26,658 nucleotides of DNA from a virus, in the IMG/VR virus record IMGVR_UViG_3300032288_006545, positions 1 to 26,658 of that record; one strand, 5' to 3'. Positions within the stretch are counted from its first letter, which is position 1, and the number at the start of each line of letters is the position of its first letter. The notes beneath the pieces were generated by a model that did no database searches, was not told where the DNA came from, and saw only the letters and a program-made list of their open reading frames with translations. This document shows positions 2,693 through 23,460 of the stretch, piece by piece. The translations under genes and the position numbers were made by a program.

Positions 2693-2892
2693 AAAACCCC
2701 CTCATAATTAATACTGATAACCGTGGATACTCGGGAATACAAATAGATTATGTTAAAACTAGAAAAACATTTTTTGTATCTGGATGGTATAATTCCTGTG
2801 TTGGAATACAAGGACGAGAAATTACTCTCAAAGAACTTTTAGAGCATTTTAAAATTACAGTAAAGGATTGTCAGAAAGTTATGGAGGAATAA
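2689..2892 (+). CDS. Conserved-looking small phage protein, unknown function
   Basis: 67 residues from a GTG start that overlaps the previous TGA. It has ordinary globular composition: 'FFVSGWYNSCVGIQGREITLKELLEHFKIT' is split here as FFVSGWYNSC, then GIQGREITLKELLEHF, a beta-hairpin followed by a helix. This normal composition contrasts with the Trp/Ser-rich genes that follow. The stop TAA overlaps the next ATG (TAATG). No function is known to me. Confidence 0.7.
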   Translation: MKNPLIINTDNRGYSGIQIDYVKTRKTFFVSGWYNSCVGIQGREITLKELLEHFKITVKDCQKVMEE

Positions 2893-3074
2893 TGCTGTAC
2901 ACAGGATCATTTAGGCATTTAATGGACCCATGTAGTGGTGTTTTTGATCATTTTAGTCATTCAAGAATTTTTAGAAGGTATGCAAGTAATTTTGGAAATC
3001 TAAACAATATAGAATCAAATTCTTTTTTATATGTCACAGGTAGATTTAGAAAAAGATATTGGAGAGGTGTATAG
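2892..3074 (+). CDS. Small aromatic/Arg-rich protein, possible divergent WSR-family member
   Basis: 60 residues, coupled to the previous gene by TAATG, with GGAGG 6 nt before the ATG. It has eight Phe, seven Arg and seven Ser. The end is 'RFRKRYWRGV', which fits the family ending of a Trp 3-5 residues before the stop. The Trp codon region (ATTGGAGAGG) serves as ribosome site for the next gene. The central CWS motif is missing, so membership rests on length, position, composition and ending. Confidence 0.65.
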   Translation: MLYTGSFRHLMDPCSGVFDHFSHSRIFRRYASNFGNLNNIESNSFLYVTGRFRKRYWRGV

Positions 3075-3265
3075 TGCAGCGATTTAATTGCTGGAGTTGG
3101 GACAGAAGTTGTAGCACTATTATGCCAACTCCAAGAATAAGAGAATCTTATGTTTGGTCAAGATGGGGGCAAATTTGCGCCAATTGGAGTGATGATTATT
3201 TTTATAGCAGCAATTTCTCGTGTTTTTACCGCACTTATTATTGGAAAAGAGATGATGTTGTTTAA
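3074..3265 (+). CDS. WSR-family small protein (GTG start)
   Basis: 63 residues. The GTG start overlaps the previous TAG by one base (TAGTG), and TTGGAGAGG is 7 nt upstream; an in-frame TTG 15 nt earlier is less likely because it lies in that ribosome site. It has six Trp and four Cys, with 'FNCWSWDRSC' near the start, 'VWSRW' and 'NWSDD' in the middle, and 'YYWKRDDVV' at the end. The pattern CWS, then W-rich, then a terminal W, is typical of the family. Function unknown. Confidence 0.72.
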   Translation: MQRFNCWSWDRSCSTIMPTPRIRESYVWSRWGQICANWSDDYFYSSNFSCFYRTYYWKRDDVV

Positions 3266-3443
3266 AATTGGTGAAAGAAGCGATGGTGCCATGTTTGACA
3301 TGGATTTCAATCGTTCCGTTAATTGGAAGTGGTCTGTGGATTCTGCTTCATGGGTATTAGGACAAGAATTTTCTGGTTGTTTTGAGTGGAATGATTATTT
3401 TTCTATTCAGTCAAGTTATGAACACTGGAGTGCCTTGATATGA
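3252..3443 (+). CDS. WSR-family small protein
   Basis: 63 residues from the first of two adjacent ATGs, overlapping the preceding ORF by 14 nt; TTGGAAAAGAG provides the ribosome site. It has five Trp: 'VNWKWS', 'SASW', 'FEWND', and a 'SYEHWSALI' ending that matches the family terminus S-x-[HN]-W-x3-I closely. More acidic (Asp, Glu) than most members. Its TGA overlaps the ATG of a tiny membrane protein. Confidence 0.72.
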   Translation: MMLFKIGERSDGAMFDMDFNRSVNWKWSVDSASWVLGQEFSGCFEWNDYFSIQSSYEHWSALI

Positions 3444-3523
3444 TCAACTGTCTGTGTCTGCTGCTTGTGATTGCGATTGTGACGGGAATGTTGTTTTTAT
3501 GCTTGGAGAATTTTGAGTCCTAA
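3440..3523 (+). CDS. Tiny single-span membrane protein (27 residues)
   Basis: MINCLCLLLVIAIVTGMLFL then a short polar tail (CLENFES). Residues 4-21 are one continuous hydrophobic segment. It is coupled to the preceding gene by ATGA, with CTGGAG 10 nt upstream. It is too short for most gene finders. The same arrangement, a one-helix protein coupled to family members, recurs at 7644, 12861, 13203, 13788 and 13925, which supports it being real. Confidence 0.55.
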   Translation: MINCLCLLLVIAIVTGMLFLCLENFES

Positions 3524-3548
3524 AAATATTTAAAAGCATATATAAGTT

Positions 3549-3983
3549 ATGAGTCTAAATTTCAAAAAATGGCTTGGAGAAAGTGAATTCAATCTGAATG
3601 AAGCTCCAAATGATTTAGCCAAAGGTTTTTCTGATGTGATTGCGAATGCTTTCAAGGCTCCAGCAATTCAGGGGGCTCTTACTCAAGCAGCAGCAGCAGG
3701 TGCTGCCAAAGCTGCTGGCTCTCCGCCTCCTCCTCCCAGAGCAACTTCTACAGTACAGGCAGGATTAACGCCAACAAAGCCCGGAGAACTATCCCCAGCA
3801 GCTAAAAAACAAATAGAAGATGGGCAAAAGCAAATGCTGGTCAAAGTATCAGACGCTTTCAAAAAGCTTCCGGGTGAAGTCGCTGGATATTTACAGTCTT
3901 GGGCAAAAAAAACAGCACAGACTCCAACTGCACCAACCACGATTAAGCCTACTATACAGGCTCCAGCTGCTCCAACAAAGTAA
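3549..3983 (+). CDS. Ala/Pro-rich protein with capsid-targeting-like N-terminus
   Basis: 144 residues. The first 12, MSLNFKKWLGES, fit the tag [FLY]-x2-[WFY]-[LI]-x-E seen on six other proteins here. In T4 an equivalent leader (MKTYQEFIAEA in internal proteins) directs packaging into the prohead and is cut after the Glu. The rest is low complexity: Ala-rich helix (38-56), a Pro run (residues 59-63), a charged helix around 'KKQIEDGQKQMLVKVSDAF', and a Thr/Pro/Ala tail. Soluble, disordered-to-helical composition suits an internal head protein. There is no clear ribosome site; CATATATAAG lies just upstream of the ATG. Confidence 0.8.
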   Translation: MSLNFKKWLGESEFNLNEAPNDLAKGFSDVIANAFKAPAIQGALTQAAAAGAAKAAGSPPPPPRATSTVQAGLTPTKPGELSPAAKKQIEDGQKQMLVKVSDAFKKLPGEVAGYLQSWAKKTAQTPTAPTTIKPTIQAPAAPTK

Positions 3984-4018
3984 GTTGAAAAATTAATGTT
4001 TTGCAGTATTTTGAAATT

Positions 4019-4249
4019 ATGGATCGATCACCCTGCACTATAATTTTTCGATACTGGAGAAAAGGCAAACTATTTCAACTACAAGCAGATGTTAAATCTA
4101 CCGCTATTGGAATTAAGGTTGCTCACGATACTAGTAAAAAATGTGAAGTTGAAAATGTAGATTGGCTAGCGGAAGTTTTGCCTTTATTCGGTGAGCCAAT
4201 AATAACTGGAACAAGATTTGGTTTAAAACATCAAAAGAGTTTGTTCTAA
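4019..4249 (+). CDS. Small protein, unknown function
   Basis: 76 residues from the ATG chosen here; an in-frame TTG 18 nt earlier is possible, and neither has a good ribosome site. 'CTIIFRYWRKGKLFQLQADV' suggests a beta-hairpin, 'WLAEVLPLF' a short helix, and the end is basic. It is convergent with the minus-strand gene and overlaps its 3' end by 4 nt. Normal amino-acid composition supports coding; no family recognised. Confidence 0.5.
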   Translation: MDRSPCTIIFRYWRKGKLFQLQADVKSTAIGIKVAHDTSKKCEVENVDWLAEVLPLFGEPIITGTRFGLKHQKSLF

Positions 4250-4953
4250 ACAATATAAGGATCGGGAACCACTCGTACAGGATCTGCGTACTCAAACCCA
4301 ATCGTATTTGGGTACAAGCTGAGAGGATCTTGTACTCCATCTTGATCCCAATCACTATAAATTGGTATGAATCCGATGGTGTTATCTGGAGAATTACCAC
4401 CAGCTGGAAGATCTGGTTGAGAAGTTAATTGCTTGACTAATCTCCATGTAATCATCTTGAGTCCGCTTTGTAAAACTAGATTTACAGTAATGCCTAAATC
4501 TTGCAGTTTCGTACCAACACCCAAAGAATATCCGGCATTTCCAACAGGTTGTGAATTTGCAGTTTCCAGATAGGCTGCTTCAAAGAAATTGTATAAATGA
4601 GTTGCATCAGTAAAAATTATGTCACTTTCATTTTCTATAATAGCAGGAGATGATGATCTAAAAGTTGTTAAAGCTGTATTTACATTTACAACGGGATAAA
4701 GATAAGCAGTGTCAACCACTGTAATCCATCCATGGTTATATGGGTTTGTGACTACATTGTTAAAAGTGATACCGTCTTTTTCGGATACAATTTTTAATTT
4801 TCCTTGTTGGTCATTAACCTGTAACATGTTTAATGATCTTTGCAACGAAACCCCATTCAATACAGAAGTGTCAAGGCTTCCTTCGGTTGCCAAATTTACT
4901 AGTTTTGGAGTGAGTTTTGTTGTATATTCGACTGGGTTAGAATAATTTGGCAT
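4246..4953 (-). CDS. Structural-type protein sharing a module with the RCC1 protein
   Basis: 235 residues. Residues 13-80 align by eye with the C-terminal module of the protein at 824-2155. Both have 'KLTP', then 'xTEG', then the identical heptapeptide 'NGVSLQR' (33-39 here), then a Lys/Ile-rich strand region with 'KDG', then an aromatic 'GW' (75-76). The remainder (80-235) is beta-rich with many Thr, Asn and Pro, for example 'GLKMITWRLVKQL' near 165. GAAGG precedes the ATG and a late-like octamer lies 24 nt upstream. A virion surface or tail protein is likely from the shared module, but no named family was recognised. Confidence 0.8.
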   Translation of the reverse strand: MPNYSNPVEYTTKLTPKLVNLATEGSLDTSVLNGVSLQRSLNMLQVNDQQGKLKIVSEKDGITFNNVVTNPYNHGWITVVDTAYLYPVVNVNTALTTFRSSSPAIIENESDIIFTDATHLYNFFEAAYLETANSQPVGNAGYSLGVGTKLQDLGITVNLVLQSGLKMITWRLVKQLTSQPDLPAGGNSPDNTIGFIPIYSDWDQDGVQDPLSLYPNTIGFEYADPVRVVPDPYIV

Positions 4954-4976
4954 GATATAACCTTCACCTTATCAAA

Positions 4977-4984
4977 TATTTACA
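4977..4984 (-). promoter_or_regulatory. T4-late-promoter-like octamer TGTAAATA
   Basis: Minus-strand TGTAAATA, 24 nt before the ATG at 4953. It is back to back with a plus-strand sigma70-like promoter, so the two transcription programmes diverge here. Confidence 0.4.
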
Positions 4985-4991
4985 GTTTTTG

Positions 4992-5020
4992 TTTACAATT
5001 TTCAAAACTTCTGGTAATAT
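4992..5020 (+). promoter_or_regulatory. Sigma70-like promoter with extended -10
   Basis: TTTACA, a 17-nt spacer, then TAATAT preceded by TGG, giving an extended -10 (TGGTAATAT). It lies 36 nt before the 5057 start codon. The same TGG-TATTAT style appears at 22151, suggesting a promoter class read by host polymerase. Confidence 0.65.
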
Positions 5021-5056
5021 GCCTTCGGGTTTTAATTTTTTAGTGAGAGGTGCAGC

Positions 5057-5269
5057 ATGAAATTGCTAGGACAGATTTGTTTTGTTTGTGGATTTCTATC
5101 GATTCTAGGCAGCATTGCTGTTTGGTATTTGGGCAAATCCGGTGATAATTTCTTTTGGCAAAATGGTGATCCGGCCCATGCCGAAAGATTTGGTATATTT
5201 GTAGGACTTTGGGCACCTACATTCTTTATTCTTAGTGAGAGATTTGAAAAGCTTTCCCATAAGAATTAA
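5057..5269 (+). CDS. Small membrane protein, two predicted helices
   Basis: 70 residues. Residues 5-25 (GQICFVCGFLSILGSIAVWYL) and 47-59 (GIFVGLWAPTFFI) are hydrophobic, separated by a polar loop with 'NGDPAHAERF' and followed by a basic tail. GAGAGG lies 7 nt before the ATG, a promoter lies just upstream and a terminator just after, so it is a single-gene unit. It resembles small phage inner-membrane proteins in general layout; no specific function can be assigned. Confidence 0.78.
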   Translation: MKLLGQICFVCGFLSILGSIAVWYLGKSGDNFFWQNGDPAHAERFGIFVGLWAPTFFILSERFEKLSHKN

Positions 5270-5277
5270 TTCAACAT

Positions 5278-5304
5278 CCCTGCGTTAAGAGCGCAGGGTT
5301 TTTT
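5278..5304 (+). terminator. Intrinsic terminator
   Basis: CCCTGCG / CGCAGGG stem with a 7-nt loop, followed by six T. It lies 9 nt after the stop of the 70-residue membrane protein. The next gene starts only 11 nt later, so that gene depends on read-through or an unseen promoter. Confidence 0.85.
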
Positions 5305-5314
5305 CTGGTGAAAT

Positions 5315-5440
5315 ATGAGATGCTTTTCCAGAAATCGTCCATTTTCTTTTTGGGGCATATGGATAGGCTCTAGAATATTTTTTTGTGGACAAGTGAAATC
5401 ATTTCCATCAACTAGCTGCATTTTCACGGAGCCATTCTGA
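5315..5440 (+). CDS. Short Cys/Phe/Ser-rich protein, possible WSR-family relative
   Basis: 41 residues with three Cys, seven Phe and seven Ser, including 'FSFWGIWIGSR'. It ends FTEPF without the terminal Trp motif, so it may be a shortened member. GGTGA lies 4 nt before the ATG. The TGA overlaps the next ATG (TGATG). The overlap and composition support it, but a gene this short is not certain. Confidence 0.5.
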   Translation: MRCFSRNRPFSFWGIWIGSRIFFCGQVKSFPSTSCIFTEPF

Positions 5441-5634
5441 TGAAATGTTTTGCCAGAAGGTATGGGCATTCTTTTTCAAACGGCTGGCATCGTTCCAGAC
5501 ATGGAAAGCACCAAGAAACATGGTGTTATTGCTGGCCCGATTGGAGTAGAAAAACAAACATGTATATTGCGATCACAAAGAAGTTTGAAGTGATAGAGCT
5601 CGGCTATAAGAGTGAGGTATTCAATCGTGGATGA
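5440..5634 (+). CDS. WSR-family-like small protein with a normal-looking C-terminal half
   Basis: 64 residues. The first half is typical: 'GWHRSRHGKHQETWCYCW' and 'DWSRK', with four Trp, three Cys and many Arg and His. From residue 41 on ('YIAITKKFEVIELGYKSEVF') it looks like ordinary beta-strand protein. This could be a fusion of a family N-terminus to an unrelated segment, or a member that drifted. It is coupled upstream by TGATG and overlaps the next gene by 8 nt. Confidence 0.62.
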   Translation: MKCFARRYGHSFSNGWHRSRHGKHQETWCYCWPDWSRKTNMYIAITKKFEVIELGYKSEVFNRG

Positions 5635-5776
5635 CATTCTAATTTACGAAGAAATCATTCGGCATATGTGGTTGAATAGCCATCTATCCAATAGGGGCTA
5701 TGACACGCTGACTGATCAACAAAAGTTAGTGTTTAATTATATCGTTGGTGTAAAACCTAACGATAGAAATATTTAA
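5627..5776 (+). CDS. Small protein, unknown function (GTG start)
   Basis: 49 residues from a GTG start overlapping the previous ORF by 8 nt, with GAGG 10 nt upstream. 'VDDILIYEEIIRHMWLNSHL' is amphipathic helix and 'LTDQQKLVFNYIVG' is a second one. Composition is acidic to neutral and quite unlike the Trp/Ser-rich genes. It is followed after 14 nt by the DNA methyltransferase, so it may be co-expressed with it. No family recognised. Confidence 0.55.
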   Translation: MDDILIYEEIIRHMWLNSHLSNRGYDTLTDQQKLVFNYIVGVKPNDRNI

Positions 5777-5790
5777 TCACAGGGGGGATA

Positions 5791-6429
5791 ATGTTCTCTT
5801 ACTACGGAAGTAAATCCAAAGTAATTGACCATTATCCCGCACCTTCGTATCAAAAAATTATTGAGCCATTTGCCGGAAGTGCCAGATATAGTCTGAAGTA
5901 CCATGATAGGGATGTACTTATCATGGAGAAGTTTGACAAGGTGTATAAAATTTGGAAGTATTTGCAAAACGCTTCCAAAGAACAAATTTTAAATTTGCCA
6001 AATGTCATAACAGATTTAAGAGAAATGGATTTGCTTGATGAAGAAAAGTATTTGATTGGCTACTGCATTGGCAGAGGCAGCGCACGGCCTAGGAACACAT
6101 GCGGTAAATTCAATAATTGGATTCAAGATAAAATCCGAATAGCTGATAGCGTAGAGAAAATAAAACATTGGGATATTAGATTTGGCGATTATAGAGAAAT
6201 TCAAAATGAAGAGGCAACTTGGTTTATTGATGCACCTTATAAAATGCAAATTCATGGCTACAATTGTAAAATTGATAATTATGATGAGTTAGCAACATGG
6301 TGCAAAACAAGAAAAGGGCAAGTCATAGTTTGTGAAAATTCTCATGGCGATTGGTTGCCATTCAGACCATTAAGACAAATGCAAGGCATCAACAAACAAA
6401 CTTTGGAAGTTATTTGGACAAACGAATGA
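5791..6429 (+). CDS. D12-class N6-adenine DNA methyltransferase
   Basis: 212 residues. 'FSYYGSKSKVI' (2-12) is the N-terminal SAM-contact motif of Dam-like D12 enzymes, and 'IIEPFAGSARYSL' (28-40) is the FxGxG-type motif. 'TWFIDAPY' near residue 145-152 is motif IV, the catalytic DPPY, here DAPY. The protein is shorter than Dam (about 270) because the target-recognition part is compact. GGGGGG lies 4 nt before the ATG. Phages use such enzymes to protect their DNA from host restriction or to mark it for packaging. The DPPY to DAPY change keeps the key Asp, Pro and Tyr, so activity is plausible but uncertain. Confidence 0.85.
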   Translation: MFSYYGSKSKVIDHYPAPSYQKIIEPFAGSARYSLKYHDRDVLIMEKFDKVYKIWKYLQNASKEQILNLPNVITDLREMDLLDEEKYLIGYCIGRGSARPRNTCGKFNNWIQDKIRIADSVEKIKHWDIRFGDYREIQNEEATWFIDAPYKMQIHGYNCKIDNYDELATWCKTRKGQVIVCENSHGDWLPFRPLRQMQGINKQTLEVIWTNE

Positions 6430-6441
6430 ATTCAAGAGTGT

Positions 6442-6627
6442 TTAGCTGGAAAAACCTAAACAGCCACCATGATTAAATCGCTGGTTATTGATTACATGCC
6501 CCATGCAACCGCCATGATTGGTTGTTGGCAATTGAGGTATGTATCCAACGCAACCACCCAAGTTGGTTGTGTCTTGGTTGGCAACATATCCGATGCAGCC
6601 AGCTAGGTTTTTGATGTAGTGTTCCAT
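6442..6627 (-). CDS. Small protein with four GGC repeats
   Basis: 61 residues. Four 15-residue units follow the pattern N-[LH]-[GA]-G-C-[IVML]-G-[YHF], for example NLGGCVGYIP and NHGGCMGHVI. Third-position differences between units (GGT/GGC, TGC/TGT) keep the amino acids, which argues for selection on protein. No family was recognised; one Cys per turn could suggest metal binding, disulfide stacking or a modified peptide, all inference. No ribosome site is visible. A CATAAATA octamer ends 5 nt before the ATG, so a leaderless late transcript is possible. An upstream in-frame ATG would add 14 residues. Confidence 0.6.
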   Translation of the reverse strand: MEHYIKNLAGCIGYVANQDTTNLGGCVGYIPQLPTTNHGGCMGHVINNQRFNHGGCLGFSS

Positions 6628-6657
6628 ATTGTATTTATGAAAAAGGCTATGCAAAAT

Positions 6658-6852
6658 ATGATATTTCATTCATATAGGGACTCATCTGCATTTAGTTTGA
6701 TATATTGCAGAAGCAATAGTTGGAAAAAGAAAATGGGAATGAGCGATTCTAAAATTATAACTACAAGCGGTGTTGTTTCATATTCCCACAACTGGCGCAA
6801 ACATATAATCAAATCACAAACCAGCAGCGTATTCATTTGGGGGGTTCGATAA
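6658..6852 (+). CDS. WSR-family small protein
   Basis: 64 residues, starting MIFHSYRDSS, with 'RSNSW' at 18-22 and 'SYSHNWRKH' at 41-49, and a 'FIWGVR' end. The order S-W then S-x-N-W then terminal W fits the family, although the terminal motif is shifted inwards. In-frame ATGs upstream (6619, 6637) would add non-family residues; AAGG lies 12 nt before the chosen ATG. Its TAA overlaps the next ATG. Confidence 0.65.
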   Translation: MIFHSYRDSSAFSLIYCRSNSWKKKMGMSDSKIITTSGVVSYSHNWRKHIIKSQTSSVFIWGVR

Positions 6853-6998
6853 TGATTTTTAGTCGTATGCGTCTAAGCAAGTGCTGGTCTGGTGAATATC
6901 ATGAATTCATTAGTCATCCCAGACAAATACGGTATAGTTACATAACAGCAGGATTTTTCAGCTATGTTTTTAGCAGAGAGTGTACGAGGAGCTTGTAA
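6852..6998 (+). CDS. Short WSR-family member
   Basis: 48 residues, MIFSRMRLSKCWSGEYHEF at the N-terminus: the CWS motif is at 11-13, exactly where full-length members have it. The last third ('FFSYVFSRECTRSL') lacks the terminal Trp, and the gene is about 13 residues shorter than average, so it may be a C-terminally trimmed copy. GGGGGG followed by TTCGATA gives its ribosome site. Coupled to both neighbours by TAATG. Confidence 0.66.
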   Translation: MIFSRMRLSKCWSGEYHEFISHPRQIRYSYITAGFFSYVFSRECTRSL

Positions 6999-7186
6999 TG
7001 ATTATCCGCAGTTCTGGCAATTTTATCACATGTTGGTCTGCCTCTATTCATTTATCAAAGCTTTCGCATGATGATGTATTTTCATATAGATGGAATAAAT
7101 CATTTGGTAATTTGGGATATGGACATAGTGATATTTTCAACAGTTGCGGATGGTCAAAAAATTTTAGTAATTGGAGAAAAAGATGA
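6998..7186 (+). CDS. WSR-family small protein
   Basis: 62 residues with the full pattern: MIIRSSGNFITCWSAS (CWS at 12-14), 'YRWNKSFGNLG', 'CGWSKNF' and the end 'SNWRKR'. The ribosome site for this ORF is the GAGGAG just inside the previous gene. The final Trp codon lies in AATTGGAGAAAAAG, which is also the ribosome site of the next gene, 7 nt from its ATG. This is one of the clearest cases of that dual use. Confidence 0.72.
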   Translation: MIIRSSGNFITCWSASIHLSKLSHDDVFSYRWNKSFGNLGYGHSDIFNSCGWSKNFSNWRKR

Positions 7187-7398
7187 TTGAAGTCAACGAC
7201 ATTGTGCAGATTTCTCCAGAAGTCAACCATCAAGGTGGTTTCTGGGCTGGCAACCTTTTGGTAGTGACAGAAGTCAAGAGTTGGGGCGTTCAGGGTTATT
7301 GCAGAACAGAAGGTGGGGAAGCACATATTCGTCTTAAGTATGGTCAATTTGAAAAAGTAGGCAAGCTTGCATGGGTGACACAAGAGGAAAACGAATAG
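7183..7398 (+). CDS. Conserved small phage protein, SH3-like beta fold likely
   Basis: 71 residues. 'DIVQISPE', 'GGFWAGNLLVVTEVKSWGVQGY' (in part) and 'KYGQFEKVGKLAWV' match a small protein I recognise from many tailed phages, with a short beta-barrel type layout; its function is not known. The start is the ATG overlapping the preceding TGA, with GGAG 7 nt upstream. It shows that ordinary phage genes are embedded in the Trp-rich run and share its coupling. Confidence 0.78.
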   Translation: MIEVNDIVQISPEVNHQGGFWAGNLLVVTEVKSWGVQGYCRTEGGEAHIRLKYGQFEKVGKLAWVTQEENE

Positions 7399-7458
7399 CT
7401 TTTTCCATTGATTTTAAGGCATTTTGTGCAAAAAATGAATAGCTAGGCGAATAGCAAA

Positions 7459-7644
7459 ATGATATTCAAACATATGTCTGGGGGAAGTGCAATTGTTGAT
7501 AGATACCATTCTTCTCAATTTACACATTCTATTTTTTCATGCGAATTGTTTGGGGAAATAGCATATAAGTCTAAGGCTGGAAGAATGGGATATACTATGA
7601 GTACTTGTTTCTCAAAACATTATTTGAGGGGGGAGATAGTTTGA
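7459..7644 (+). CDS. Small protein, divergent WSR-family member without Trp
   Basis: 61 residues. It starts MIFKHMSGGS and ends 'CFSKHYLRGEIV', which lines up with the 'YSKHWGSNI' ending of the member at 11206 if Tyr replaces the terminal Trp. There is no Trp anywhere, but the length, position, MIFK start and Ser/His/Tyr/Cys content fit. The 60 nt before it hold only three copies of a GAATAGC-like word. Its TGA overlaps the next ATG (TGATG). Confidence 0.58.
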   Translation: MIFKHMSGGSAIVDRYHSSQFTHSIFSCELFGEIAYKSKAGRMGYTMSTCFSKHYLRGEIV

Positions 7645-7745
7645 TGTCTGACTATTGGAACGGATTTTGGACAGGGCTTGCTGTTGCTTTTTCTGGCTAT
7701 CAACTGTATCTTTTGGTATTCGATATACTGAGGAAACGGCAATGA
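7644..7745 (+). CDS. Tiny membrane-type protein (33 residues)
   Basis: MSDYWNGFWTGLAVAFSGYQ then LYLLVFDILRKRQ: an amphipathic to hydrophobic stretch at 7-27 and a basic C-terminus, as expected for a one-helix membrane protein with the tail inside. GGGGGGAG is 8 nt before the ATG. It is coupled to both neighbours (TGATG before, ATGA after). No homologue recognised. Confidence 0.55.
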   Translation: MSDYWNGFWTGLAVAFSGYQLYLLVFDILRKRQ

Positions 7746-7939
7746 CCCACCCATTCCATGCATTTAGCCTCAATAGAAAATTTGGCTACGCTGTAAAATC
7801 ACAGCAATTTACTAAGAGCATGTGGAGTTCTTTATGCTTTGGAAACAAGTGTGATAGGAGTTTTATCGTTTTAGGAAAGCTGAGTACCCTTCATAATTTT
7901 TATAAATTTTACAGTTTGCATTGGAGTGACAGAATATGA
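7742..7939 (+). CDS. WSR-family small protein
   Basis: 65 residues, beginning MTHPFHAFSLNRKFGYAVKS and ending 'FYSLHWSDRI', which fits the family terminus S-x-[HN]-W-x3-I. 'FTKSMWSSLCFG' in the middle corresponds to the internal S-x-W motif. Phe and Lys are more frequent than usual. The last Trp codon sits in CATTGGAGTGACAGAAT, ending at the next ATG, so it supplies that gene's ribosome site. Confidence 0.68.
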   Translation: MTHPFHAFSLNRKFGYAVKSQQFTKSMWSSLCFGNKCDRSFIVLGKLSTLHNFYKFYSLHWSDRI

Positions 7940-8124
7940 ATTTCCCTAAGCCGCCATTTGCTTTTTATAGAGACTGTCGTGCATTTGGCGATAATTATAA
8001 TATTTTTGGATTGTTCGATTTGAGTAGATACGGCACATATACAAGTTATAAACGAATTGGAGCAAATCATATGGGCATGTCAGCGTGTTTCAATAGATTC
8101 CAAACAGAATGCTATTGGTTTTAG
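7936..8124 (+). CDS. Divergent WSR-family member at the end of an operon
   Basis: 62 residues, coupled by ATGA. Rich in Phe, Tyr, Arg and Asn ('FYRDCRAFGDNYNIF', 'RYGTYTSYKR') with a single Trp two residues from the end ('TECYWF'). Since no gene follows on this strand, the absence of the usual TGGAG-type ending fits the idea that the ending is kept for translational coupling. Membership is tentative. Confidence 0.58.
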   Translation: MNFPKPPFAFYRDCRAFGDNYNIFGLFDLSRYGTYTSYKRIGANHMGMSACFNRFQTECYWF

Positions 8125-8180
8125 AGCTAGGAGATATTTAAGCAATAATAGGATTAGTATTATGCTTTAATGAACGCAAA

Positions 8181-9071
8181 CTAAGATGCTGCTAATCTAG
8201 GTTTTCTCATGGTAAATCCAATTGTACTATTCACAACATTTTGAAGCATCGAGTTTATTGTTCCTATTAATGCGTTAAAATTTTGATAATTGGATTTGAC
8301 TAGATTTTTAAGAGTTTTAAATAAATTGATATATCCTTCTCTTTCTAGGAATTTATAAATTATATTTGTTGTACCCCAGTTTTGGCTTATTCTGCCTATT
8401 GGTGATGGATTAGATAATGTGTCAAAACTGTGCCATCTCATATTTTTTATACTTTCGTATCTTCTCAGCACATTTTTTATTTGTTGTTGAATCGCACTGT
8501 TTAAAACTCCACCTGAATTTTTGATCATTTCAAGTAATTCTTCTATTGATGGTTTTATGGTTTTCTCAACTGATTTATACAGTTTATGTTCTTTGCTTTC
8601 TTCGTCGGAAATGAACTTTTGGAAGTCCATAGTAGTTTTTTCGAAATCTGGTCTTTTAATCCAAACTGGTTTGTTTGTTTCTATTTGACCTATTATATCA
8701 TAAACTCCATCAAAGGATTCAATTTGATTCCTAGTTCCTTTTGAAACTTTAAATTGATATGGCCTTTGCCCGAAATTGTATTTAGAATCAATATTCTTTC
8801 CAATCCAATCGTCTGCTTGTTTAAATAGTTCATCATCCGCTCTGGGCACAGATAAAGTGGTATCGATATCAGATGTTGGTGAATATTGATATGTCACAGC
8901 AGCCCCGACAACGAAAAAGTCGTCTATAGGCAAATTAGGAAATCTGTTTTTAATTTCACTGATTCCACCCGTGATTGTATTCACAACTTCTTGTTTTAGC
9001 TTTCCATCCTCATCAAAAATATCAGATAATGAGTGTTGTGGTTGATCAACTATGGCTTCTCTTATATACAA
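8181..9071 (-). CDS. Nucleotidyltransferase-fold protein (TTG start)
   Basis: 296 residues. 'FFVVGAAVTYQYSPTSDIDTTLSV' (in the region of residues 52-75) is the core of the pol-beta type nucleotidyltransferase fold: a G-A/S turn followed by D-x-D metal ligands (SDIDTT). A third acidic residue is probably in 'SFDGVYDIIGQ'. The C-terminal half is helical and basic and may bind the substrate. The start is TTG, with GAAGGTG 5 nt before it; no nearer ATG fits. A late-like octamer lies 35 nt upstream. Such proteins occur in large phages; whether this one modifies RNA, a nucleotide or a protein cannot be read from sequence. Confidence 0.75.
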   Translation of the reverse strand: MYIREAIVDQPQHSLSDIFDEDGKLKQEVVNTITGGISEIKNRFPNLPIDDFFVVGAAVTYQYSPTSDIDTTLSVPRADDELFKQADDWIGKNIDSKYNFGQRPYQFKVSKGTRNQIESFDGVYDIIGQIETNKPVWIKRPDFEKTTMDFQKFISDEESKEHKLYKSVEKTIKPSIEELLEMIKNSGGVLNSAIQQQIKNVLRRYESIKNMRWHSFDTLSNPSPIGRISQNWGTTNIIYKFLEREGYINLFKTLKNLVKSNYQNFNALIGTINSMLQNVVNSTIGFTMRKPRLAAS

Positions 9072-9105
9072 AGTTACACCTTCAAGAAATATACATTATA
9101 TTATG

Positions 9106-9113
9106 TATTTATT
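9106..9113 (-). promoter_or_regulatory. T4-late-promoter-like octamer AATAAATA
   Basis: Minus-strand AATAAATA, 35 nt before the TTG start of the nucleotidyltransferase-like gene. It fits the NNTAAATA pattern found before other minus-strand genes here. Confidence 0.35.
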
Positions 9114-9400: not shown

Positions 9401-9595
9401 ATGATTTTGAAACGCCATTCTATTTCTTCCTGTGAGCCGTTTTGGCAAGAATCATTTATTGGCTCCAAGGTGTTTTTATGGAATGAGCCTATATGTTTCT
9501 GGAATGTCCGTTTATATGATTATGCCGAATGTTGGTCGTTTAGCCAGCAAAGTAATTATTATGATAGGTCGCTTCATTGGGGTAGGGATGTATGA
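9401..9595 (+). CDS. WSR-family small protein
   Basis: 64 residues, MILKRHSISSCEPFWQESF at the start, 'LWNEPICFWNVR' and 'YAECWSFSQQ' inside, and 'YYDRSLHWGRDV' at the end. Five Trp and three Cys. The terminus matches S-x-H-W-x3-hydrophobic. Its last Trp codon (CATTGGGGTAGG) lies 14 nt before the next ATG and provides the purine-rich ribosome site. Confidence 0.72.
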   Translation: MILKRHSISSCEPFWQESFIGSKVFLWNEPICFWNVRLYDYAECWSFSQQSNYYDRSLHWGRDV

Positions 9596-10218: not shown

Positions 10219-10701
10219 ATGTACATTTTGTTTGATTGCTTTGGTACGGTTTTCAATATGGAAAATGTGCCAAAAGAAGACTTGGTATATTATGGTTCTG
10301 TTTTGAGAAACCCTATATGGGAACCTCTTAATTTTCCAGATACTTGGAAACATATACCTGCTCATCCAGATAGTAGGGAAGGATTGGAACTAATTAAGCA
10401 AAAGCATAAGATAATTGCTCTAAGTAACGCACCAAAACTTTTGATGACTGAATTGTCGTTAAATGCTGGAATTGTTTGGGATCATATTATTGGTTTAGAG
10501 AAATATAAAATTTATAAACCCAATCCCTTGGCATATTTGACAGCTTGTGCTGAATTAGATTGCCGTCCAAGTGAATGCATTATGATAAGTGCGAATAAAA
10601 ATTTTGGCGACATTGAACATAGCAGAGAAGTTGGAATGCAAAGTATATTGATTAGGGATGATAAGGTTGCTAATATCATTGCTTTGGCGGGGGTGTTATG
10701 A
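10219..10701 (+). CDS. HAD-superfamily hydrolase-like protein
   Basis: 160 residues. Motif I 'ILFDCFGTVFN' (3-13) has the nucleophile Asp6 and, as in 2-haloacid dehalogenase-type members (D-x-[FY]-G-T), no second Asp. Motif II is 'ALSNAP', motif III is the Lys in 'KIYKPNPLAY', and motif IV is 'MISANKNFGDIEHSREVGMQS', where the usual first acidic pair is replaced but a GD and the A/V-GM-S tail remain. AAGGAG is 8 nt before the ATG. Probably a small-molecule phosphatase or dehalogenase-fold protein; substrate unknown. It sits inside the WSR operon and is coupled to the next member by ATGA. Confidence 0.8.
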   Translation: MYILFDCFGTVFNMENVPKEDLVYYGSVLRNPIWEPLNFPDTWKHIPAHPDSREGLELIKQKHKIIALSNAPKLLMTELSLNAGIVWDHIIGLEKYKIYKPNPLAYLTACAELDCRPSECIMISANKNFGDIEHSREVGMQSILIRDDKVANIIALAGVL

Positions 10702-10883
10702 TTACTAAAGCTCTAATACATCCCAAAGATGCAAGATGCTGGACTTGCTATGGATCAATTTCAAGCAGTTGGCGTTTAGATGTACTTATTTCTTATGAGT
10801 CTGCGGGTGCCTTTTCTAGAGCATTCAAAGCTGTTAGGAATACTGGTTGCAAAAGTTATAATTGGAGCCTTAACAAACCATGA
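10698..10883 (+). CDS. WSR-family small protein, DARCW subgroup
   Basis: 61 residues. It aligns by eye along its length with the member at 12186: shared 'DARCW' at residues 11-15, then S-x-W, 'SYE/SYK', F-x-x-F/V, and 'SYNW' close to the end. That gives a direct sequence link between non-adjacent members. GGGGGTG lies just before the ATG, inside the HAD gene. The terminal TGG lies in AATTGGAGCC, 17 nt before the next ATG. Confidence 0.72.
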   Translation: MITKALIHPKDARCWTCYGSISSSWRLDVLISYESAGAFSRAFKAVRNTGCKSYNWSLNKP

Positions 10884-11209
10884 TCCCCCTAGACGATCTT
10901 TACCCAGCCAATGATGATTGCTTTCAGCCAGTTTCGTCTGGTGATTATTTTAATACTGGTTCACCGTTTTGGGAATTTTCTGATTTCCATAAATGGGGAA
11001 ATAATTCAAATGAATTTAAATCGGGATTCTATGCAGGACTTTTTGAAGTTGCCTTAAAATCTGGCAAGCCATTTAAATTTTTAATTCCATATAGTCTTGA
11101 AGATTATGTTGAAATGTTTGTTGCAAGAGCAAGGCAATTTAATAGAAACATTGAGATTGAAAAAGGAGAAGTTTTTATTTATATTTGGGTTGTGGAGCAT
11201 GACATATGA
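10880..11209 (+). CDS. Small acidic protein, unknown function
   Basis: 109 residues, coupled by overlap of the previous stop with ATG (CATGATC). 'FKSGFYAGLFEVALKSGKPF' and 'SLEDYVEMFVARARQF' are clear helices, followed by 'EVFIYIWVVEHDI' as a strand, so this is a folded alpha/beta protein. The N-terminal 35 residues are polar with several aromatic residues. No family recognised. It is larger than its neighbours and not Trp/Ser-rich. Confidence 0.68.
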   Translation: MIPLDDLYPANDDCFQPVSSGDYFNTGSPFWEFSDFHKWGNNSNEFKSGFYAGLFEVALKSGKPFKFLIPYSLEDYVEMFVARARQFNRNIEIEKGEVFIYIWVVEHDI

Positions 11210-11397
11210 TCCGCAATATACACAGCATATCGCATGTAACCTATTTTACAACAAACTGTAACAGGTCTATGTCATGGTCAAGTATGCAATTTAATTTATC
11301 ATCTTTGAAACCTTACATTTTCTTTTCCTATTGCTTTGAACACAATGCTCCTTGGACTTCTAGCCAATATAGTAAACATTGGGGGAGCAATATATGA
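11206..11397 (+). CDS. WSR-family small protein
   Basis: 63 residues. MIRNIHSISHVTYF, 'NRSMSWSSMQF', 'NAPWTSSQ' and the ending 'YSKHWGSNI', one of the most regular family termini. The junction DNA (CATTGGGGGAGCAATATATGATT) is nearly identical to the one at about 11990-12010, two members downstream, so the end-and-restart segment is conserved at DNA level. The GGGGAG there is the ribosome site of the next gene. Confidence 0.72.
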   Translation: MIRNIHSISHVTYFTTNCNRSMSWSSMQFNLSSLKPYIFFSYCFEHNAPWTSSQYSKHWGSNI

Positions 11398-11564
11398 TTG
11401 TTAAAATTAACAGTTTTTCCAATGTTAAATGTTGGAGTCGTCATTGTTCTAAATCTTGGTTTAGAGGTCAAACTTGGTCTTGGTCTTGGGTTAAAGACAA
11501 ATCTAGGTCGTGGTGCTACTCAAAGATTTGCTATAAATCAAATCATTGGAATCAGAATTTATGA
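11394..11564 (+). CDS. WSR-family small protein, most Trp-rich
   Basis: 56 residues with seven Trp and eleven or more Ser: 'VKCWSRHCSKSWFRGQTW' followed by SWSWV, 'SRSWCYSK' and the end 'KSNHWNQNL'. The repeated S-x-W spacing looks like an internal amplification of one short motif. It starts MIVKINSFSNV, the consensus N-terminus. An alternative ORF in another frame (11398) lacks a ribosome site. The last 36 nt plus the next gene's first 13 nt are repeated with 44 of 48 identities at 11772-11819. Confidence 0.73.
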   Translation: MIVKINSFSNVKCWSRHCSKSWFRGQTWSWSWVKDKSRSWCYSKICYKSNHWNQNL

Positions 11565-11576: not shown

Positions 11577-11746
11577 ATAGTTATTCTTGGTTGCAACTAT
11601 GGTGCATCCACCACGGTCGTTCGCACAATTGGAAGGCTAATGATGACCGGAATCAAAAAAAATGCAATCCATTTGGACAAAGAATTCGTTCTTCTTGCTG
11701 GAACCCACCAAGACCATTTTCTACAAATTGGGCTAAAATGATATGA
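11561..11746 (+). CDS. WSR-family small protein
   Basis: 61 residues. Pairs well with the member at 12004 without gaps: shared K-T at 4-5, L-W at 13-14, N-W near 23, 'FGxRxRSxCWxPxR' at 38-51, and a terminal S-x2-W-x-K-x-I. Identity is roughly one third by eye, far above its similarity to other members. Five Trp. It starts MNLKTYSYSW and is coupled upstream by ATGA; its terminal TGG is in AATTGGGCTAAAATGAT just before the next start. Confidence 0.73.
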   Translation: MNLKTYSYSWLQLWCIHHGRSHNWKANDDRNQKKCNPFGQRIRSSCWNPPRPFSTNWAKMI

Positions 11747-11826
11747 TGAAACTTAAAGCCAATATCAAAATTGCTATAAATCAAAGTATTGGAATCAGAA
11801 TGTATGAACCTGAAAACATCTGTTAA
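11743..11826 (+). pseudogene. Chimeric, frameshifted WSR remnant
   Basis: The first 17 nt from the second ATG (11746-11762) are identical to the start of the member at 12186. The following segment from 11772 is copy B of the 48-nt junction repeat, whose original frame encodes the terminus C-Y-K-S-x-W-N-Q-N. Here the two parts are out of frame: in the terminus frame a TAA lies just upstream, and reading on from the ATG gives only 27 residues without the family motifs. This looks like an N-terminus of one paralogue joined to the C-terminus of another with most of the gene lost. Confidence 0.7.
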
Positions 11827-12007
11827 GTCTTTAAATTCCTGTTGGTCTAGAGAAATTTTGTACTCTTGGCTGAGTATTCAAGCTTTTAGAAATTGGTCGT
11901 GGAGAACTGTTTTGCAAGAATCAAGAGCAACAAGCAGCAGTTGTTTCTGGTGCAGATCATGGGTAGCAAACCGCACTTATTCTAGACATTGGGGTGGCAA
12001 TATATGA
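11804..12007 (+). CDS. WSR-family small protein
   Basis: 67 residues. MNLKTSVKSLNSCWSREILYSW at the start (given in parts: CWS at 13-15), 'FRNWSWRT', 'SSSCFWCRSW' and the end 'YSRHWGGNI'. Seven Trp and three Cys. The first five residues are identical to the 11561 member, because both come from the repeated junction block. The terminal junction CATTGGGGTGGCAATATATG is almost the same as the one before 11394. Confidence 0.73.
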   Translation: MNLKTSVKSLNSCWSREILYSWLSIQAFRNWSWRTVLQESRATSSSCFWCRSWVANRTYSRHWGGNI

Positions 12008-12189
12008 TTATCAAAACACATAGTCTTTCTTCTGTTAAATTGTGGCGAATGAATTCTAGGTATTCCCGCAATTGGAATCTCGATGTAATAATAGTTTCAT
12101 TAAACGCTAAGACATTTGGGATAAGATGTCGTTCAGGTTGTTGGGATCCTTTAAGATTATATTCGTTTCATTGGGAAAAATTCATATGA
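12004..12189 (+). CDS. WSR-family small protein
   Basis: 61 residues. MIIKTHSLSSVKLWRMNSR at the start, 'YSRNWNLDV', 'FGIRCRSGCWDPLRL' and the end 'YSFHWEKFI'. Closest relative in the window is the gene at 11561 (see there). Four Trp, two Cys. GGGGTGG in the previous gene's last codons is its ribosome site. It ends in CATTGGGAAAAATTCAT, again 14 nt from TGG to the next ATG. Confidence 0.73.
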   Translation: MIIKTHSLSSVKLWRMNSRYSRNWNLDVIIVSLNAKTFGIRCRSGCWDPLRLYSFHWEKFI

Positions 12190-12371
12190 AACTTAAAGCC
12201 AACACAAAATCTGGAGATGCACGATGTTGGTCTAGGAGTTGGCGGTCATGTGCTTGCTGGCATTTGACATCCCATACCTCATACAAAAATGGCAGAAGTC
12301 TTTTCAAGGTTTTCAGAACTGATACACAACCGGGTTACTATAGTTATAATTGGGGGTCTACTAGAGAATGA
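12186..12371 (+). CDS. WSR-family small protein, DARCW subgroup
   Basis: 61 residues. MKLKANTKSGDARCWSRSW, then 'CACWHLTSHTSYKNG', 'LFKVFRTDTQPGYYSYNW' and GSTRE. It is the partner of the 10698 member (shared DARCW, SY, F-x-x-F/V, G and SYNW in the same order). Four Trp, three Cys. Its first 17 nt also occur at the head of the chimeric remnant at 11743. The next ATG overlaps the stop by ATGA. Confidence 0.72.
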   Translation: MKLKANTKSGDARCWSRSWRSCACWHLTSHTSYKNGRSLFKVFRTDTQPGYYSYNWGSTRE

Positions 12372-12532
12372 TATTAAATCCTCAATCAAGAACTGATTCC
12401 AGAGTGTTTTTCAACGAACATATTTCTGATATTTTTTCATCCAAATATGCATATAGTGAAAGTTGGAGAAAAAGTTTCTGCATGTCAGACTGGAATGATC
12501 AGAATATCTATCATGTAGTTTGGGGAGTTTAA
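12368..12532 (+). CDS. WSR-family small protein, short variant
   Basis: 54 residues. MILNPQSRTDSRVFF, 'YAYSESWRKSFCMSDWNDQ' and the end 'YHVVWGV'. Three Trp. The CWS motif is replaced by 'ESWRK', and the C-terminal Trp is 3 residues from the stop. TTTGGGGAGTTTAAA at the end is a strong ribosome site for the following TTG-start membrane protein. Ribosome site of this gene: GGGGG within the previous terminus, 18 nt away, or TAGAGA nearer. Confidence 0.66.
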   Translation: MILNPQSRTDSRVFFNEHISDIFSSKYAYSESWRKSFCMSDWNDQNIYHVVWGV

Positions 12533-12678: not shown

Positions 12679-12861
12679 ATGATTTTCAAAACCAACTCTA
12701 ATTCACTTAGTGCATTATTCCAAAATTCTGGACATAGGTCAAAGTCATGGTATAAAACTTCAGGCTCACACAGAAAGAACGCCTTTAATACTTGGGCATA
12801 TTCTTGGGACTTTTGCAGGTGGTTGCCTAAGTGGTCAAGAAATTGGAGAGGCAATATATAA
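12679..12861 (+). CDS. WSR-family small protein
   Basis: 60 residues. MIFKTNSNSLSALF at the start, 'HRSKSWYKTSGSHRK', 'NTWAYSWDFCRWLPKW' and the end 'SRNWRGNI'. Six Trp, one Cys. GAGGAG 8 nt before the ATG. The terminus and the junction (AATTGGAGAGGCAATATATAATG) parallel those of 11206 and 11804, with TAATG in place of ATGA. Confidence 0.73.
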   Translation: MIFKTNSNSLSALFQNSGHRSKSWYKTSGSHRKNAFNTWAYSWDFCRWLPKWSRNWRGNI

Positions 12862-13292: not shown

Positions 13293-13432
13293 CAGAAAAA
13301 CAAGTATTAAACAAAATAGATGAATGGCACACCTCTAATTCGGAAGTGCCCTTGCATGATTTTTTGGGATGGACTTTTCTAGAATACTACGCTTATGTTA
13401 AAACAGGTGTGATTCCAGAGACAAAGCAATGA
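13289..13432 (+). CDS. Conserved small phage protein with 'LHxFLGW' motif
   Basis: 47 residues. 'EVPLHDFLGWTFLEYYAYVK' and 'TGVIPE' match a tiny protein common in phage genomes (L-H-[ED]-[FY]-L-G-[MLW]-[ST]-x-x-E-[YF]), whose role is not known to me. Two short helices are likely. Coupled at both ends by ATGA. It is one of the few genes in this run that can be tied to a wider phage family. Confidence 0.72.
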   Translation: MTEKQVLNKIDEWHTSNSEVPLHDFLGWTFLEYYAYVKTGVIPETKQ

Positions 13433-13596
13433 TCTGCCGCCTTGTTCACTTTTCTTTTATAGAATGCTGGAGCGATGATAAAAGTTATTCCAGAAATTGG
13501 ACTTTAAGGAAGCGTCAATTTTCCTCTAGCCCCATCGGTTACAGGGCTTGGCACAATGGTTTTGTTATGTCTTATCAATGGAAAAAAAGCATATGA
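13429..13596 (+). CDS. WSR-family small protein
   Basis: 55 residues. MICRLVHFSFIECWSDDKS, 'YSRNWTLRKR', 'YRAWHNG' and the end 'MSYQWKKSI'. CWS at 13-15 and SRNW at 21-24 sit exactly at the consensus places, making it one of the most regular members. Four Trp. Coupled by ATGA both upstream and downstream; its final Trp codon is in CAATGGAAAAAAAGCAT before the next ATG. Confidence 0.73.
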   Translation: MICRLVHFSFIECWSDDKSYSRNWTLRKRQFSSSPIGYRAWHNGFVMSYQWKKSI

Positions 13597-13766
13597 TTCA
13601 CAGAAGAATTAAAATCTCCTTCTTGGGATGTTGGAGTCATATGGAATCCAAATCAAGGTCTTGGAGATATTCAATTTTCAATGAGAATTATGGTTGTGGT
13701 TTTGGCACAGAAGGCTATGAAGTGTCATTTCATTGGAACAAAGATTTATGTTGCACAGACATGTAG
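13593..13766 (+). CDS. WSR-family small protein
   Basis: 57 residues. MIHRRIKISFLGCWSHMES, 'KSRSWRYSIF' and 'YEVSFHWNKDL' followed by a short extra tail CCTDM. It aligns with its upstream neighbour at 13429 through F-[IL]-x-CWS (10-15) and SR-[NS]-W (21-24), which suggests a local tandem duplication. Three Trp, four Cys. This is the last member before two membrane-protein genes. Confidence 0.73.
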   Translation: MIHRRIKISFLGCWSHMESKSRSWRYSIFNENYGCGFGTEGYEVSFHWNKDLCCTDM

Positions 13767-16510: not shown

Positions 16511-16705
16511 ATGTTACACAAAAACACAAGTTGGTCTTCCATATGCCTTTTTAACACTGGCTATATGTTTAGTTTTGCTTTCATAGGAGATATGGATTTC
16601 AGTTTTCATTGGCAATTGCAACATCAAGCATCTGAAGATTTAGCAATTAGGCGATGTTTTAGTTTGGGTAATTACAGGGGTAGAAGTTGGTTAAATGATA
16701 CTTAA
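16511..16705 (+). CDS. WSR-family small protein, isolated copy
   Basis: 64 residues. MLHKNTSWSSICLFN, 'MDFSFHWQLQHQASED' and the end 'YRGRSWLNDT'. Three Trp, two Cys. The FHW motif is central and RSW is terminal. AAGGTG is 6 nt before the ATG, directly after a strong terminator, so expression would need read-through or a promoter inside the hairpin region. It lies before the glycan-modification genes. Confidence 0.66.
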   Translation: MLHKNTSWSSICLFNTGYMFSFAFIGDMDFSFHWQLQHQASEDLAIRRCFSLGNYRGRSWLNDT

Positions 16706-22131: not shown

Positions 22132-22159
22132 TTGCAATTTTAAAATTTTATGGTATTAT
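22132..22159 (+). promoter_or_regulatory. Sigma70-like promoter with extended -10
   Basis: TTGCAA, 16-nt spacer, TATTAT preceded by TGG. It is 22 nt before the ATG at 22182 and contains the upstream in-frame ATG (22158), which is a reason to reject that ATG as start. Confidence 0.6.
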
Positions 22160-22181
22160 GATTTTTTTCAGGAAACCAACT

Positions 22182-22535
22182 ATGATTGCAATAATATGTA
22201 CTGATGGTCAGCTTGGTTTACATGAAATTGAAAAAGAGTGTGTATCACAAAGATGGATTCCACTTCTTATATTAAAGCAAAAACTTGATGGTAAGATTAT
22301 TCTGCCTGTTTTTAATTTAATTGATATATCGAGAAAATTTGTTAATAGGAATATGCCTAAAAACTGGAATCACGGTTGTGTGCTTCTAGCAAATGAAGAC
22401 ATAGAAAATATTATTAAAAAAGATTGGAAAATTGAACCATTTGATTTTCCAAGAAAAGTTAATGAGCACCCAGATTTTGAAATGACATTTGAAATTCATG
22501 AATTTGCCCAAGAACCAGATTTTAATTGCGTTTAA
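22182..22535 (+). CDS. Small protein, unknown function
   Basis: 117 residues. The start is set at the ATG with AGGAAA 8 nt upstream. 'MIAIICTDGQLGLHEIEKEC' suggests a strand-turn-helix beginning, 'RWIPLLILKQKLDGKIILPV' a beta-hairpin, and the C-terminal 40 residues are acidic ('HPDFEMTFEIHEFAQEPDF'). It is the first gene after its own promoter, with no terminator seen after it. No family recognised. Confidence 0.68.
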   Translation: MIAIICTDGQLGLHEIEKECVSQRWIPLLILKQKLDGKIILPVFNLIDISRKFVNRNMPKNWNHGCVLLANEDIENIIKKDWKIEPFDFPRKVNEHPDFEMTFEIHEFAQEPDFNCV

Positions 22536-22560
22536 TTTTTTAAAATAGTTTGAACAACAC

Positions 22561-22568
22561 TCTAAATA
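22561..22568 (+). promoter_or_regulatory. T4-late-promoter-like octamer TCTAAATA
   Basis: TCTAAATA, 7 of 8 to the T4 late consensus, 25 nt before the GTG start at 22593. It abuts the hairpin described next, so the transcript would begin inside or just at the left arm. Confidence 0.35.
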
Positions 22569-22594
22569 CTAGCAATACAAAAGGTATTGCTAGT
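22568..22594 (+). promoter_or_regulatory. Hairpin covering the start codon of the 22593 gene
   Basis: ACTAGCAATAC, loop AAAAG, GTATTGCTAGT: a perfect 11-bp stem. Two bases of the GTG start lie in the right arm and the loop holds the only purine-rich ribosome-site candidate. No T run follows, so it is not a terminator. It could limit translation of the gene from long upstream transcripts. Confidence 0.5.
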
Positions 22595-23249
22595 GGACAA
22601 AATTTCTAAGCTTCAAAAATTCTGTAGCATCATTGGATACAACCTTGATGATTTTCTCTTGAAATATCAAGGTGTAAAAATTCCAAAAACTAATTTAGAT
22701 AAACATGATCTATTCAAAAATTTGATCTTACATAATCTAACCGATGAACAGAACAGTTACATTAAGCATATTTGCAATTTACCTAACAGAGATTCTAGAA
22801 CGCCACAAGAATATGCAAAAGATCTAGTTATTTCTTGGTTGGTCGAAGACATCATACAAGATTATTTGAATTTAAAGAGTAATGGAGCAGATAAGGATAG
22901 AGTTTTTCTACATTCAAGACAAATTAAATATGATTCTGATTTTATGGCAGGAGATAGACTGCTTGAGCTATATGTTAATTTTACTAACTACTGGACTAAA
23001 ACGAGACAAATTGATTTAAGAATGGATAAGTATTCACATTTAGTGGAAAAAAAATCATTGTTGTTGGGAATAGCATTTGAAGATCTTAAATTTTACTTGA
23101 TTGATTTTGGAAAGAGTGACATTCCTTTTTATGAAAACTATAATTATTTTTGGAAGAAGAAATGTTATACTTGTAAAAAATTTAATGACTTTCATGATTT
23201 GTCATTTATAAAAGAACATCTGTTGAGTGTCACAAACCATGCATCATAA
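22593..23249 (+). CDS. Unknown protein, possible nuclease-like fold (GTG start)
   Basis: 218 residues from GTG; a TTG two codons earlier is also possible. 'AKDLVISWLVEDIIQDYLN', then 'DFMAGDRLLELYVNFTNYW' and 'LRMDKYSHLVEKKSLLLGIAF' with 'LKFYLIDFG'. The D-x(n)-L-E-L-Y-V run followed by a basic K-Y-x-H-L element loosely resembles the core strands of PD-(D/E)XK-type phage proteins, but catalytic residues cannot be fixed by eye. Near the C-terminus is a single 'KKKCYTCKKF' that might bind metal. Unknown, with a weak nuclease-like hint. Confidence 0.65.
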   Translation: MDKISKLQKFCSIIGYNLDDFLLKYQGVKIPKTNLDKHDLFKNLILHNLTDEQNSYIKHICNLPNRDSRTPQEYAKDLVISWLVEDIIQDYLNLKSNGADKDRVFLHSRQIKYDSDFMAGDRLLELYVNFTNYWTKTRQIDLRMDKYSHLVEKKSLLLGIAFEDLKFYLIDFGKSDIPFYENYNYFWKKKCYTCKKFNDFHDLSFIKEHLLSVTNHAS

Positions 23250-23460
23250 AATTACAGCAAAATCATCAGGAATAGTCTGGACTGGCAGCACAGGTTTTCA
23301 TAGGTCTTTGAATCATTTTTATTCAAGATCAAGAGGAAGATGTTTTTTAACAAACAAGATTATCTGTTTGTTGAATTTGTTTCATGAATCAACATGTTTT
23401 GAATCTTTTGCCTTTACTAACAACAGAATATACTCTAAATGCTGGCGAAACAATATATAA
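23239..23460 (+). CDS. WSR-family small protein, isolated copy
   Basis: 73 residues. MHHKITAKSSGIVWTGSTGF, 'HFYSRSRGRCFLTNK' and the end 'NRIYSKCWRNNI', a regular family terminus with Cys in place of His/Asn. Two Trp, four Cys. It overlaps the previous ORF by 11 nt. It lies apart from the main run and directly before a convergent minus-strand gene. Confidence 0.66.
   Translation: MHHKITAKSSGIVWTGSTGFHRSLNHFYSRSRGRCFLTNKIICLLNLFHESTCFESFAFTNNRIYSKCWRNNI

Follow-up and report, generated by a model that had tools for sequence, protein, structure and literature searches.

The window analysed here is the whole of IMG/VR record IMGVR_UViG_3300032288_006545 (26,658 bases). It carries a family of small Trp-, Ser- and Arg-rich genes, referred to here as WSR, that interleave with and overlap ordinary phage genes, among them those for an RCC1-repeat protein, a D12 methyltransferase, a HAD-like hydrolase, S-adenosylmethionine methyltransferases, and a NUDIX protein. 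Relatives occur in three further phages: G004 (IMGVR_UViG_3300027754_005796), G017 (IMGVR_UViG_3300044612_003672), and G054 (IMGVR_UViG_3300027754_005989; 144,066 bp), the best-studied WSR-bearing relative. The WSR proteins are about 60 residues long and contain 8-13% Trp and 18-26% Ser, with Arg and Cys in excess, few acidic residues, and a net charge of +7 to +9 per 100 aa. Compared with the products of ordinary genes of the window they are richer in Trp (8.2 vs 2.2%), Ser (17.9 vs 6.5%), and Arg (7.5 vs 3.4%), and more strongly charged (+9.2 vs +0.8 per 100 aa). Members typically start with M-[IN]-x-K, contain CWS or SxxW words, end in S-x-[HNQ]-W, and span about 50-80 aa. In 14 window proteins Ser stands three residues before Trp 32 times, where 9.7 cases are expected, and the residues alternate between two registers, one of Ser/Asn/His and the other of Trp/Arg/Lys/Phe/Tyr.

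An earlier sequence-only reading of this DNA had described a repeating motif pattern in about 33 such genes. The pattern is real: 11 regular members (open reading frames (ORFs) starting at 10698, 11206, 11394, 11561, 11804, 12004, 12186, 12679, 13429, 13593, and 3255) have in common M-[IN]-x-K, S-x-S, CWS, S-x-[NS]-W, and the C-terminal S-x-[HNQ]-W-x3-[ILV]. The count is smaller. Using a profile hidden Markov model (HMM) that includes relatives from the three other phages, 13 window ORFs score 33-65 bits, and two more, held out when the model was built, reach 18.4 bits (23239) and 12.6 bits (9401), while the best of 4,540 composition-shuffled ORFs attains 11.0 bits. Because these scores exceed the shuffled maximum, we accept about 15 predicted plus-strand WSR members; to these we add one cousin at 6658-6852, for which the support is instead an orthologue in another phage. 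The remainder of the 33 score at or below that maximum. On the plus strand of 2801-16750, 15 ORFs exceed 5% Trp where 0.9 are expected. The other Trp-rich ORFs (e.g. 9176, 9592, 10040, 12368, 14070, 14656, 16200) do not rise above the shuffled scores. Some of these are probably genes, since they are coupled to their neighbors, with family membership unproven. HMMs built from half of the window members recovered the other half in part: the first half found 4 of 5 held-out members at E≤0.02 and the other half 2 of 5 at E≤3e-4. The same analysis also turned up the member at 3255-3443, which was in neither training set.

All of these features lie on the plus strand. The member at 10698..10883 (50.9 bits) is ATGA-coupled both to the upstream HAD-like gene and to an ordinary gene at 10880. 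Further members are located at 11206..11397 (50.7 bits; 14.3 bits with an HMM built from the other phages, shuffled maximum 9.6), 11394..11564 (41.4 bits; 24.1 bits with the other-phage HMM), 11561..11746 (59.1 bits), 11804..12007 (53.0 bits), 12004..12189 (64.9 bits), 12186..12371 (50.1 bits), 12679..12861 (44.2 bits; other-phage HMM 11.2 bits), 13429..13596 (52.3 bits; 14.6 bits with a G017-only HMM, for which one shuffled ORF reached 14.8), and 13593..13766 (49.1 bits). The 11394 member retains residual TGG-TCT hexamers and matches the G054 array at 7.6e-12 by tblastn. The ORF at 12368..12532 is a possible member that is coupled and scores 10.5 bits, a similarity at the shuffled maximum. 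Outside this stretch, the member at 3255..3443 (MLFKIGERSDG...SSYEHWSALI) is detected by HMMs built without it (E 7.7e-4 and 2.7e-4), and the member at 6998..7186 (MIIRSSGNFITCWS..., 33.5 bits) is coupled to a conserved ordinary gene at 7183..7398 (phrog_19062). That gene is 73% identical to G054:37501-37698, which likewise lies near WSR genes. The diverged cousin at 6658..6852 (MIFHSYRDSSAFSLIY...YSHNW) has an orthologue at G054:43156-43347 (E 2e-11), and the member at 16511..16705 (MLHKNTSWSS...FSFHW) has one at G054:37245-37433 (E 3e-11). The ORFs at 23239..23460 (...IYSKCWRNNI) and 9401..9595 (MILKRHSIS...RSLHWGRDV), the two held out above, are probable members.

The stop/start overlaps noted by the sequence-only reading are also well supported. 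Counting only ORFs of 45 aa or more within 2801-16750, we observe 15 ATGA overlaps on the plus strand and 1 on the minus strand, while dinucleotide-shuffled versions of the region average 0.05 and never exceed 1. The purine-rich tract that precedes the next start often consists of the last Trp codon and the codon that follows it. WSR genes form chains of ~60-codon cassettes, coupled through ATGA or GTGA to each other and to ordinary genes. In several cases a member runs into the start of an ordinary gene (10883/10880, 7186/7183, and G017 MNYTVKIT), as would be seen if the units were Trp/Arg-rich leader peptides that throttle the coupled downstream genes in an attenuation-like manner. However, the plus-strand array of G054 ends at a convergent gene and has nothing downstream to control, and the conserved Ser, His/Asn, and N-terminal motifs are unexpected of a throttle, making a leader function extremely unlikely.

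The relatives were reached stepwise. A profile made from the window matched G004 weakly, over the full length (E 0.05), and a tandem pair there has the window-type start motif and an ATGA junction; a search with one member of that pair led to two arrays of five and six units in G054; and the combined profile identified G017 (E 5e-8), with at least 5 diverse members, including some with an ATG start and one with a GTG start overlapping the upstream stop. Because the profile had grown as members joined, homology was retested afresh. A window-only HMM ranked six WSR ORFs of other phages at the top of 4,641 ORFs, five in G054 at 15-24 bits and the sixth in G017 at 12.4 bits (shuffled maximum 11.7). 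Reciprocally, in an HMM search built only from the other phages, the top window ORF was 11394 (24.1 bits), and another four members exceeded the shuffled maximum of 9.6 bits. G054 codes for a T4-type terminase and a baseplate wedge protein, for which reason we call the group T4-like, and the WSR family is, as judged by these profiles, present in at least four related T4-like phages, all of which come from metagenomes. Whole-record scans of other phages in which a conserved window gene occurs (that at 7183 or the one for the 24930-26213 protein) yielded WSR genes in G004 and G017 only. In L002-L004 the methyltransferase is the sole gene in common with the window, and no WSR gene was seen there; a match in G018 (E 0.006-0.01) was rejected for its in-frame stops. 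Direct peptide-pattern scans with a window WSR protein and the D12 methyltransferase returned nothing, and the conserved N-terminal DNA pattern was found among viral contigs only in G054 and G004 and in 0 genome contigs.

Trp-Ser repeats read as Gly-Leu repeats in the next frame, and it was therefore necessary to ask which frame is coding. Across the window, no stop interrupts the 838 codons of the WSR frame, compared with 29 stops in the +1 frame and 79 in the third frame; the corresponding counts in G017 are 0, 3, and 27 in 267 codons. The starts and purine-rich upstream tracts agree with the WSR frame. Ten members have an invariant Ser three residues ahead of the last Trp; seven of them encode it by TCN (TCA/TCT/TCG) and three by AGT, suggesting that selection acts on the amino acid. 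For the two orthologue pairs with G054, the WSR frame scores 119 and 118, whereas no other frame exceeds 49 and 65, respectively, and conservation is lowest at third codon positions. Three-base periodicity, which the sequence-only reading had called for, and frame-specific conservation are seen in the two members with orthologues.

The case for the WSR frame is weaker in G054 and G004, where both frames are open, and several observations weigh against our reading. The arrays of these two phages lack clear purifying selection in the WSR frame, the +1 frame looking alike: over the N-terminal 75 nt the ratio of nonsynonymous to synonymous substitution rates (dN/dS) is 0.58 for the WSR frame, 0.51 for +1, and 1.20 for the third. 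One G054 unit is interrupted by a stop in the WSR frame. In the window, the Ser/Trp alternation outside of the SxxW words is marginal (z 1.9), and AlphaFold models have a pLDDT (predicted local distance difference test) of 52 and 59, with no secondary structure and no confident fold. In the array-bearing phages at least, the functional frame could be +1, yielding small, hydrophobic membrane proteins rich in Leu and Gly, such as LKQIAIAITDALDLIIQNQIAGLGLGLG...NIGAAINDNQ, with the Ser-Trp repeats as a shadow of Gly-Leu repeats or with both frames used by overprinting. The +1 frame is open in nearly all G054 and G004 units, including the one with the WSR-frame stop, and the variable base of TGG/AGG in the arrays is silent in +1-frame Leu codons, with Ser nearly always TCT. 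A dN/dS pair as low as that observed arose in 77% of dual-constraint simulations and in ≤7% of WSR-only runs, in a simulation for which no model matched the third-frame dN/dS well. However, the +1 frame is broken in the window by the stops counted above, has neither ATG nor GTG at the points where WSR genes start, and is not open with a start in all units, as would be expected of a Gly/Leu membrane protein. In G017 the Ser codons are TCG or TCC, turning the +1-frame Leu into Arg or Pro; in the cousin pairs the WSR frame alone is conserved; and +1 peptides have no relative in PHROGs or GenBank phages. We regard a functional +1 frame as unlikely, and consider the WSR gene family and its frame in the window to be highly probable. 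As a separate observation, a further instance of two-frame ambiguity occurs at L132 5973-6137 (-), where a Trp-rich ORF (MFRTGECCCRTF...) has in another frame a plausible small hydrophobic protein (MDFMFFIVVGGDLCSGQENVVAGLLPTTDGGLGLGG).

The units turn over rapidly. G054 contains tandem units of 230 bp and stretches of a repeated 6-bp unit, with truncated, frameshifted, and stop-bearing units interspersed with intact ones, and the two tandem-array phages carry TCT-NGG hexamer repeats coding for (Ser-Trp/Arg/Met)n. The WSR region of the window has no tandem repeats; it does retain duplications at junctions, with direct repeats D1 (61 nt, 85% identical) and D3 (24 nt, 88%) as evidence for a hybrid unit remnant at 11746..11826 (MKLKANIKIAINQSIGIRMYEPENIC) that has a 12186-like head and an 11394-like tail. 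The duplications and the remnant support the birth and death of units by recombination at conserved junctions. These features point to fast turnover by unit duplication, conserved-junction recombination, and unit decay, together with apparent replication slippage in the TCT-NGG hexamers of the two tandem-array phages, with residual hexamer runs in a third phage. Both the repeats and the broken units of G054 would also fit simple-sequence DNA, hexamers and tandem duplicates, that is decaying without any protein function. We consider this very unlikely, given that the window, despite having no tandem repeats, maintains an open frame, starts, couplings, and a codon-independent conservation of Ser. 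A bolder proposal is that the family was born from hexanucleotide repeats, with TCT-NGG slippage continually making Ser-Trp/Arg/Met peptides that were later fixed, duplicated, and refined into coupled host-directed chains, while the overlapping frame yields a second product of Leu/Gly type. We view this origin as possible though improbable; if it were true, phages would own a self-renewing source of new small proteins.

Most units of the G054 array (L090 7154-8329) also contain a perfect or near-perfect inverted repeat, TTTGGATT-TAAT-AATCCAAA. A putative conserved RNA hairpin formed by TTTGGATT-AATCCAAA was not adopted, as the changes are only one-sided and track codons; a search of the window against Rfam returned nothing.

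Other features were noticed in these genomes. Many unrelated proteins begin M-x(0-7)-[FY]-x-x-[WYF]-[LIV]...[ED], for example MSLNFKKWLGESE and MRSFWTYLITESE, with sites in the window at 3549, 14170 (internal Met), 23472-24314 (-), 24379, 24930, and 26213, and in G054, G016, and G017. The pattern is found in 5 of 23 window ORFs of at least 100 aa and at 0 of 57 internal Met residues; it is reminiscent of the T4 capsid-targeting sequence of injected internal proteins. The conserved 24930-26213 protein, 69% identical to that of L005, carries a long, seemingly intein-like insertion separating its N-terminal part from its C-terminal part, and its homologue in L133 (8469) seems to bear an intein-like insertion too. 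The window ORF at 6442-6669 (-) has four copies of a ~14-residue repeat, N-[LH]-[AG]-GC-x-G-[YHF], and L132 3832-4767 has a 246-bp tandem repeat of 3.9 copies inside a MNFKLWLYREESEF gene.

Known protein families offer no counterpart. Pfam, PHROGs, NCBIfam, and PADLOC profiles gave no family match (best E-values 0.01-0.2, unrelated), GenBank phages gave no DNA match and tblastn hits of E 3 or worse for regular members and none for the cousins, and neither the PDB nor the literature yielded a match to or a description of WSR. The family appears to be new, and the profile, cross-phage, and database searches together bear out the idea of a fast-diverging set of paralogues unlike known ones. Its coding, homology, and turnover are well supported by sequence comparison. 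With respect to function, the peptides would carry a strong positive charge (about +9 per 100 aa) and would not fold stably by themselves. Their repeated S-x-[S/N/H]-W words may align Trp with Arg/Lys in a single register, opposite a register of Ser/Asn/His, creating Trp/Arg faces that could bind host nucleic acid or proteins, and the phage may vary this fast-evolving accessory set through copy number and repeat length. Members overlap ordinary genes, vary fast, and are confined in our searches to four related phages. A set of small cationic binding proteins that act on the host during infection is the likeliest role, although the host-directed binding, including its target, is a tentative suggestion, less likely than not to be right. 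A part in host takeover or anti-defence, as proposed by the sequence-only reading, would be plausible. Our confidence in the explanation as a whole, combining coding, turnover, and a host-directed cationic set, is evenly balanced.

Most phage genes are short and without an assigned role, and WSR provides a named family that annotation pipelines overlook. Related phages display this one small-protein family from near-identical hexamer-built units to deeply diverged coupled genes, so that de novo protein birth and arms-race diversification in phages become directly testable.

Several known systems invite comparison. Indolicidin and tritrpticin are Trp/Arg-rich antimicrobial peptides, and by composition and charge WSR products are also short, cationic, and rich in Trp and Arg; however, they are longer, Ser-dominated, encoded in chains, and made within phage-infected cells. 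The Trp-Arg ladders of the WSXWS and thrombospondin type similarly have repeated Trp-Ser words with Arg/Lys sharing the Trp register, but WSR has no Pfam, NCBIfam, or PDB match or confident fold, and the likeness serves as a working analogy. Multi-copy clusters of small phage genes are already known, and the small ORFan clusters of T4-like phages have tiny, variable, overlapping genes in hypervariable regions. WSR differs from these in that many neighbors are recognizable paralogues of a single family, with variation that appears to be hexamer-driven.

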